The notes below the pieces were generated by a model. The model saw nothing but the letters and a program-made list of their open reading frames with translations. It ran no database searches and was not told the origin of the DNA. From NCBI RefSeq assembly GCF_010093205.1, contig NZ_PDWN01000005.1, positions 62,001 through 126,000 on the forward strand: 64,000 nucleotides of DNA, in the 5' to 3' direction. The stretch is from Pseudoxanthomonas daejeonensis. GTDB lineage: Bacteria > Pseudomonadota > Gammaproteobacteria > Xanthomonadales > Xanthomonadaceae. The translations under genes and the position numbers were made by a program. Positions within the stretch are counted from its first letter, which is position 1; each line of letters starts with the position of its first letter. Shown here piece after piece: positions 44,781-46,335 of this stretch.

Positions 44781-45740
44781 ATGGCCATCTACGACAGCAT
44801 CCTCGACACCATCGGCCGCACTCCGGTCGTCAAGCTGCATCGCATCGCTCCGGCGCACGTGGAGCTCTATGCCAAGGTCGAGGCGTTCAATCCCGGCGGC
44901 TCGGTCAAGGACCGCCTGGCCCTGGCGATCGTCCTGGACGCCGAATCCAAGGGCCAGCTCAAGCCCGGCGACACGATCATCGAGGCCACTTCAGGCAATA
45001 CCGGCGTCGCCCTGGCCCAGGTCGCTGCCGCGCGCGGCTACAAGTTCGTCGCGGTGATGGTCGAGACGTTCTCGATCGAGCGCCGCAAGCTGATGCGCGC
45101 CTACGGCGCCAAGGTGATCCTGACGCCCGCGGCCGAGCGCGGCACGGGCATGGTGCGCCGCGCCGAAGAGCTGGCGAAAAAGCATGGCTGGTTCCTCGCC
45201 CGCCAGTTCGAGAACCCGGCCAATCCTGCCTACCATCGCCAGACCACCGCCGCCGAGATCCTGCATGACTTCGCCGGTCGCCGACTGGACCACTTCGTCA
45301 GCGGCTGGGGCACTGGCGGAACGCTGACCGGCGTGGGCGAGGTGCTGCGCGTCGCCCGCCCGGAAGTGAAGATCACCGCCGCCGAACCGGCCAATGCGTC
45401 GCTGCTGGCCGGCAACGAATGGAAGCCGCACAAGATCCAGGGCTGGACCCCGGACTTCGTGCCGGCGGTGCTCAATCGCGAGGTCGCCGACCAGATCCTC
45501 GGCGTCACCGACGAGGACGCCATCGCCACCGCACGCCGCCTGGCGGCAGAGGAAGGCATCTTCGCTGGCATCTCCTCGGGCGCGACGGTCGCTGCGGCGC
45601 TCAAGGTCGCCGCCGATGCGCCGGCCGGCACGGTGCTGCTGGCGGTGCTGCCGGACACGGGCGAACGCTACTTCTCCACTCCGCTGTTCGAGGGCGTCAA
45701 CGAAGGTTCGGACGACGAGTGGCTGGCTTCACTGAGCTGA
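44781..45740 (+). CDS. cysK: O-acetylserine sulfhydrylase (cysteine synthase A type)
   Basis: PLP enzyme that joins O-acetylserine and sulfide to cysteine. The 319-residue product begins IYDSILDTIGRTPVVKLHRI, has the PLP Lys43 in NPGGSVKDRLA, TSGNTGVALAQVAA, GTGGTLTGVGEVL and ISSGATVAAA. Length and motifs favour CysK over CysM. It lies 54 bases after the SUMT gene on the same strand and is closed by its own terminator. Confidence 0.96.
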   Translation: MAIYDSILDTIGRTPVVKLHRIAPAHVELYAKVEAFNPGGSVKDRLALAIVLDAESKGQLKPGDTIIEATSGNTGVALAQVAAARGYKFVAVMVETFSIERRKLMRAYGAKVILTPAAERGTGMVRRAEELAKKHGWFLARQFENPANPAYHRQTTAAEILHDFAGRRLDHFVSGWGTGGTLTGVGEVLRVARPEVKITAAEPANASLLAGNEWKPHKIQGWTPDFVPAVLNREVADQILGVTDEDAIATARRLAAEEGIFAGISSGATVAAALKVAADAPAGTVLLAVLPDTGERYFSTPLFEGVNEGSDDEWLASLS

Positions 45741-45762: not shown

Positions 45763-45795
45763 AACGGGCGACACGCAGGTGCCGCCCGTTTTCGC
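45763..45795 (+). terminator. intrinsic terminator of cysK
   Basis: AACGGGCG (45763-45770) pairs with CGCCCGTT (45783-45790), loop of 12, followed by TTCGCTT. It lies 22 bases after the cysK stop. Confidence 0.65.
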
Positions 45796-45899
45796 TTGGC
45801 GCTAGGCCGCCGCGCGCTAGCAGCCTGGCTTGCGGCGGGACGCAGAAAGCAAGGCAAGGGCAAAAGCAAAAGACGGAGCGTGCGTCGCGGTTGCGCTGC

Positions 45900-45979
45900 G
45901 GGGTGTTCCCTTCCGCGAATGTCCCCCGGCACCGATAAAGCCGGTGCCTCCTCCTTTATTTCGCTGCAGGGAACACCCC
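45900..45979 (+). repeat. 80-nt palindromic repeat element, copy 1
   Basis: A nested imperfect palindrome. Outer arms GGGGTGTTCCC (45900-45910) and GGGAACACCCC (45969-45979) pair perfectly. Inside is a 50-nt core (45915-45964): GCGAA/TTCGC ends and a central GGCACCG-ATAAAGC-CGGTGCC hairpin. The core is repeated in inverted form at 46144-46193 with one mismatch. REP/REPIN-like in design, but I do not recognise the family. Its place between convergent genes fits a terminator-like or intergenic repeat role. Confidence 0.85.
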
Positions 45980-46128
45980 ACATCGCCTGAAGGTGGCAGC
46001 GGCCTGGCTGGGCGACGCACGGTCAATGCAAAAGGCTGAACCCGGCAGCATGCGTCGAGTGGCGCAATGTGTTCATCGCGTGCGCGCCAGATTTCTGGAG
46101 GAAGCGCCTGGTACCTGTCGGGACGTGG

Positions 46129-46209
46129 TGCGATGCCCTCGGGGCGAAATCAAGGAGGAGGCACCGGCTTTATCGGTGCCGGGGGACATTCGCCCCGAGG
46201 GGCATCGCA
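46129..46209 (-). repeat. 81-nt palindromic repeat element, copy 2
   Basis: Second copy, in opposite orientation. The 50-nt core (46144-46193) is the reverse complement of copy 1 with one mismatch. The outer arms are of different sequence (TGCGATGCCCTCGGGGCG at 46129-46146 and CGCCCCGAGGGGCATCGCA at 46191-46209) yet still pair over 18 bp with one bulge. Copy 1 and 2 are 149 bases apart. Confidence 0.85.
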
Positions 46210-46335
46210 GCGCGTCTTGCCGCGACCCGTCCGCCCAAACCAATGCTGTGCTCGCTCTTTGACGAAACCGCATCGCGATGCGCTGCGAGAATCACAGTGC
46301 AGCAGCCGTGCAGGACACGGCTGCCACGTACCTCA

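Follow-up and report, generated by a model that had tools for sequence, protein, structure and literature searches.

A dispersed double-hairpin repeat with a near-invariant internal loop in Xanthomonadaceae and Comamonadaceae, probably mobilised by ISL3-type transposases in at least two genera

The analysed window, a 64-kb stretch of the Pseudoxanthomonas daejeonensis genome, contains two hairpins in inverted orientation between a pair of convergent genes, namely cysK on the plus strand (cysteine synthase, TIGR01139; positions 44781 to 45740) and scpC on the minus strand (succinyl-CoA:acetate CoA-transferase, NF053853; 46336 to 47847). The pair sits just past an intrinsic-terminator-like hairpin and T-tract 3′ of cysK (45765 to 45797, plus strand), recognised from the sequence, and a similar terminator is kept in relatives in which this site is empty. 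Hairpin A (45893 to 45986, plus strand) carries the pyrimidine-rich loop strand on the plus strand and was delimited by its fold and inverted arms. Hairpin B (46122 to 46216, minus strand) is inverted with respect to A, has outer arms of its own and was delimited by fold, arms and orthologue pair counts. The spacer between them (45987 to 46121) is unconserved in comparisons between genera. An inverted-repeat comparison placed the two 50-nt cores at 45915 to 45964 and 46144 to 46193, 179 nt apart and 98% complementary with one mismatch, just as the preliminary description of this DNA had claimed. No third match to the apical sequence was found in the 64-kb window (chance expectation 0.00). The same description had called the units nested palindromes of 80 nt; the folded hairpins are larger, at approximately 95–100 nt each.

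In each hairpin the outer stem is long and variable and is usually followed by a GCGAA/TTCGC clamp. Next comes an asymmetric internal loop, with TGTCCCCC on one strand and TCCTCCTTKAT on the other, and beyond it a GGC/GCC clamp leads into an apical stem that again varies. The outer arms are unlike in sequence between A and B and each is complementary to its own partner, as had been proposed: self-pairing is 85% over 27 nt in hairpin A (45893 to 45919 with 45960 to 45986), and in hairpin B 88% over 17 nt (46122 to 46138 with 46200 to 46216) and 100% over a further 13 nt (46136 to 46148 with 46189 to 46201). Folding energies lie between −51 and −70 kcal/mol (z = −7.2 to −8.2), and 0 of 200 shuffles folded equally well for any of the four strands. 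The core of hairpin A (plus strand; model R1, E = 5.5e-22) runs from the GCGAA clamp through an 8-nt loop, the variable apical stem and an 11-nt loop to the TTCGC clamp, and that of hairpin B lies on the minus strand (E = 7.1e-21). In A, the 5′ half of the conserved loop is TGTCCCCC (45920 to 45927, plus strand; columns 82–99% conserved in 214 copies) and the 3′ half is TCCTCCTTTAT (45949 to 45959, plus strand; columns 84–100% conserved except at a T/G position). The purine sides of loop B, read on the plus strand, are ATCAAGGAGGA (46149 to 46159), in which the AAGGAGGAGG run already noticed in the core begins at 46152, and GGGGGACA (46181 to 46188). An intrinsic terminator was rejected as an identity for the hairpins, given that none of the sequences inspected has a T-tract directly after the stem. 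In Rfam, no family exceeded its gathering score for the window pair, and only sub-threshold miRNA and radC matches were returned. The MIR918 and mir-9441 matches at 45915 to 46214 (30–53 bits, far under the thresholds) are probably artefacts of long hairpins.

Genome searches with a covariance model of the core identified 16 copies in this genome, 27, 31 and 37 in three Lysobacter genomes, 74 in a Comamonadaceae metagenome-assembled genome (MAG) and 5 in a Rhodoferax MAG, with 27–90 copies in several related genomes. Furthermore, the exact 21-nt half-core was found in Lysobacter sp. A03, L. concretionis, L. antarcticus and Comamonadaceae/Rhodoferax MAGs. At the level of the family, 94 of 395 genomes matched at E ≤ 0.001, nine of them with only weak best matches (E > 1e-4), and 85 genomes from seven genera matched at E < 1e-6; at the level of the class, matches were found in 4 of 369 genomes. 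A local duplication, which the preliminary description had considered should further copies prove absent, is excluded by these copy numbers. A phage or viral origin was likewise rejected, as neither of two patterns matched any of 2.9 million viral contigs exactly.

Copies usually form convergent A/B pairs, and all of the G124 pairs inspected consist of one A-type and one B-type hairpin. Genome G124 has 90 copies, of which 16 are single and the rest form 37 pairs, 36 of them convergent; in G190, orientation is convergent in 13 of 15 pairs. The context of the sites was taken from loci and crude open reading frame calls, and the few sites that appear to lie within reading frames may be calling errors. 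With simple gene calls, 17 of the 36 classified G124 sites lie between convergent genes (13 tandem, 6 divergent), as do four of the seven sites classified with crude calls in the window's own genome. The window pair belongs to a non-coding double-hairpin repeat that is dispersed, usually in intergenic DNA and often between convergent genes. In L. concretionis, the stretch between one A copy and one B copy contains a hybrid hairpin, whose left arm is B-type and right arm A-type (L030, 4026 to 4473); its folding as one long hairpin is lost, which suggests recombination inside the core. Single hairpins with differing arms were also observed in four genomes of one genus (L081, L086, L091 and L092), just 3′ of what is apparently one CoA-transferase subunit gene.

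The history of the window locus was followed in 13 genus members with scpC, of which three are filled with the pair or a remnant (this genome, G001 and G014), nine are empty and one is rearranged. The gene neighbours are unchanged at the empty sites and the pair is absent. That members of one genus differ in having the pair at this locus shows that it is gained or lost as a unit. Among the three orthologues of hairpin B, seven pairs have changed on both sides, compared with a shuffled mean of 2.3 and 0–1 in slid controls; the orthologues of hairpin A show two compensated pairs, no more than shuffles, and its 5′ loop is altered in G001 and G014. At this locus, no target duplication was identified and no ISL3-type ends were recognised for the window copy, which is older and probably represents a miniature mobile element that has been inherited in place.

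Compensation in the stems extends to dispersed copies. The left arms of 13 hairpins in this genome average 46% identity, and the hairpins fold at −38.1 kcal/mol with their own arms versus −20.9 when arms are swapped among copies, with the same direction in three other sets. The apical stem also changes by compensation, and many arms are perfect palindromes with a sequence unique to the copy. Loop positions are mostly 92–100% constant in 214 copies, the exceptions being one T/G position and two positions that co-vary. The claim that the fold and not the sequence has been kept is thus half right: the arms compensate between orthologues and paralogues, but the sequence of the internal loop is the most conserved part of the repeat. 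Counted over 177 copies, which are related by descent, the combinations in the two loop halves were C/T (145), T/C (20), C/G (7), T/T (4), T/G (1) and C/C (0, versus approximately 17 expected under independence). The T/C form occurs in four lineages (the Comamonadaceae MAG, G545, G130 and G287) and differs from C/T by a G·A to A·G exchange on the purine strand. This covariation is suggestive only, and it may fit either bases of the loop pairing non-canonically or a protein that counts GGA motifs.

In some hosts the pair belongs to a larger element. Alignment of 24 G124 pairs revealed conservation extending past the hairpins to GGTTCTTCgCCCAATcGAGGG and CCCTCACTTGGGAGAAGAACC, and G124 elements with both ends found measure 412–436 bp. 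Two of the 17 measured elements have exact 8-bp duplications (TTCCTTTT and GAAAATAA; elements at 608060 and 1443189) and two more have an 8-bp duplication with one mismatch, while none is seen in most older copies; many G124 elements adjoin A or T runs. In L. concretionis, element L019 has the ends GGTTCATC...GAAGAACC and is flanked on both sides by TTATTTCT. The outward TIR motif was present on 40 of 78 sides in G124 (the wrong strand gave 1 of 78 and control stretches 0 of 78) and on 5 of 52 sides in Lysobacter; the scan gave 0 of 18 sides in the window's genome and none in the Comamonadaceae MAG or in any further genus sampled. Full ISL3 insertion sequences with ends matching those of the element were found in G140 (1309 bp, with a 407-aa transposase; NF033550, E = 6.9e-101) and in L. 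concretionis (TSD TTTTTTAT), and no ISL3 transposase match was obtained in G124 or in the window's genome. ISL3 elements are reported to generate duplications of 8 bp that are AT-rich (PMC5559704; the 8-bp length also in PMC12554700). The G124 and Lysobacter copies share with ISL3 insertion sequences and derived MITEs the GGTTC(T/A)TC... ends, the AT-rich 8-bp duplication and the T-tract target. They differ in that the insertion sequence itself is without hairpins, and ISL3 ends cannot be recognised in most copies of the repeat, that in the window among them. The literature searched contained no ISL3-derived MITE with hairpins of this sort. An IS1595 MITE, an idea raised by the 8-bp duplication, was rejected with PF12762 present in just 1 of 20 genomes.

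Since the ends of the element match those of ISL3-family insertion sequences, spread in G124 and Lysobacter was most likely by ISL3 transposases in trans, and the whole is probably a MITE/BIME-like double-hairpin repeat that ISL3 has mobilised in at least two genera. For G124 and Lysobacter, where ends, duplications and a matching insertion sequence were observed, mobilisation in trans can be proposed with good confidence. The corresponding chance for the window copy is placed a little short of even; because such ends are absent from its genome and from the Comamonadaceae copies, we infer the route there from the other hosts. In the Comamonadaceae MAG, L258 and approximately 11 other copies, about a third, have a GTGCTATTGAATTTGTAG-like stretch 64–89 nt upstream. 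No inverted partner of this stretch was established in that MAG, and it is perhaps the end of a different vehicle.

The hairpins had been likened at first sight to REP/REPIN elements, with the suggestion to look for a RAYT/Y1 transposase, and the comparison holds in part: the repeat is a family with inverted partner units, as in BIMEs and REPINs, and its inverted dimers are dispersed in intergenic DNA. Convergent dimers, intergenic sites and the hairpin fold would all suit a large REPIN moved by a RAYT in trans, and some Y1_Tnp gene is present in 18 of 22 genomes tested. However, six genomes that bear the element (L. antarcticus, Lysobacter sp. A03, G224, G410, G004 and G215) have no Y1_Tnp, and no core lies within approximately 1.5 kb of any of the 46 RAYT loci scanned; the tests of a RAYT link covered 32 genomes in all. 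In addition, the RAYTs of this genome and of G124 have repeats of their own, GTAG-type REPs and GGGGTCAG TIRs, respectively, and inspection of the alignments revealed neither a constant GTAG nor a constant CGTC tag. Mobilisation by a RAYT is consequently judged improbable. The only Y1_Tnp gene found in the window's genome (G000:C22:136105-136431, L036) is flanked by several GTAGGAGCGG REP copies, a separate repeat family of the classic GTAG type, and the AAAATGGGGTCAGGTACATTT inverted repeats that flank the G124 RAYT (L133, 1360 to 1380 and 2152 to 2281) fit the published GGGGWSAS motif of TIRYT genes. REPs of the GTAG and CGTC super-families are likewise dispersed intergenic palindromes, mainly in inverted dimers and frequently heterodimers (PMC3733652), but their units are 20–40 nt versus approximately 100 nt here, and of the two only the present repeat has a fixed internal loop set between long stems that vary freely. 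In Stenotrophomonas, RAYT genes are described with TIR families of other kinds on their flanks; some of these families are self-complementary and occur as close pairs, one self-complementary family being from S. maltophilia (Di Nocera et al., PMC3733652). These TIRYT repeats share self-complementarity and close pairing with the window repeat, and the loop strand GGGGGACA resembles GGGGWSAS; in contrast, no tyrosine transposase flanked by window-type repeats was found, and TIRYT-type repeats here read GGGGTCAG. The S. maltophilia 1152 TIR family is the main published candidate for identity, with the comparison made by description only, and on that footing the core is apparently undescribed in the literature searched. 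Integron attC sites also form imperfect hairpins with a variable apical part and conserved unpaired bases, and so resemble the window hairpins. They differ in that, by inspection, the core has no R box (RYYYAAC/GTTRRRY), its outer stem is unconserved and it forms no arrays with open reading frames.

What maintains the paired arms and the loop is a separate matter. Quasi-palindrome template switching is an established mutational mechanism and could contribute to compensation, so compensation, although real, is not by itself treated as proving that selection acts on the fold. Such switching might even keep the arms paired with no selection at all and leave the element a neutral dispersed relic, as the many perfect but copy-unique palindromes would allow; the same process, however, should make the mismatched loop palindromic, and the loop stays unpaired and near-invariant across distant families, which makes a purely mutational origin rather unlikely. 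Because template switching would destroy the loop, the loop is a stronger sign of function than the arms, and its near-invariance implies that the extruded single strand or the transcript would act in a sequence-specific way. A rival reading, slightly less unlikely than the neutral relic, is an RNA element that works in both directions at convergent 3′ ends. Any read-through transcript, from whichever side, would finish with the purine-loop hairpin, to which a GGA-recognising protein such as RsmA/CsrA might bind or which might block exonucleases, and mobility would be incidental. Convergent orientation puts the purine hairpin second on either strand, the sites often lie between convergent genes as counted above, and the several GGA motifs of the purine loop keep their number in the swapped loop form. 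Nevertheless, one GGA is lost in the G124 form whose covarying 3′ position is G, the missing T-tract means that the hairpins are not intrinsic terminators, and the G124 copies behave as transposon cargo. Mimicry of a Shine-Dalgarno or anti-Shine-Dalgarno sequence (AAAGGAGG / CCTCCTTT) has 8 nt identical to the canonical motif in its favour; it is highly improbable, since CTCCCCCTT variants, present in 20 of the 177 copies, break the mimic and are matched by a reciprocal change in the opposite loop half, and no start codon is positioned downstream.

The preferred explanation is a dispersed double-hairpin repeat, spread by ISL3 in G124 and Lysobacter, with a loop of sequence-specific role. Its identity as a mobile repeat is held with high confidence, and the explanation as a whole is considered likely. 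In G124 and Lysobacter the pair would be carried in a MITE-like element with ISL3-family ends, on which ISL3 transposases would act in trans, inserting it at AT-rich sites such as terminator T-tracts. Selection, perhaps aided by template switching on quasi-palindromes during replication, would keep the stems self-paired, and the most likely role of the conserved loop, judged from its conservation, would be binding by a host protein to the extruded single strand or transcript. Recognition by such a putative factor is proposed tentatively. Equally tentative is the broader possibility that the bulged hairpin is a new structured nucleic-acid module common to Xanthomonadaceae and Comamonadaceae, recognised as single strand or RNA by a putative host factor and carried by more than one kind of vehicle, in which the reciprocal loop changes would reflect non-canonical pairing.

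As a dispersed non-coding palindromic element, mobile in some hosts at least, the repeat is of an ordinary kind, and it is the core that is unusual. Palindromic repeats of a type usually credited to RAYTs are here tied to ISL3-type ends. Freely changing stems around a nearly constant unpaired loop in distant bacteria point to a specific recognition event and not to a generic hairpin, and the hundreds of natural variants form a set for mapping what that recognition needs.
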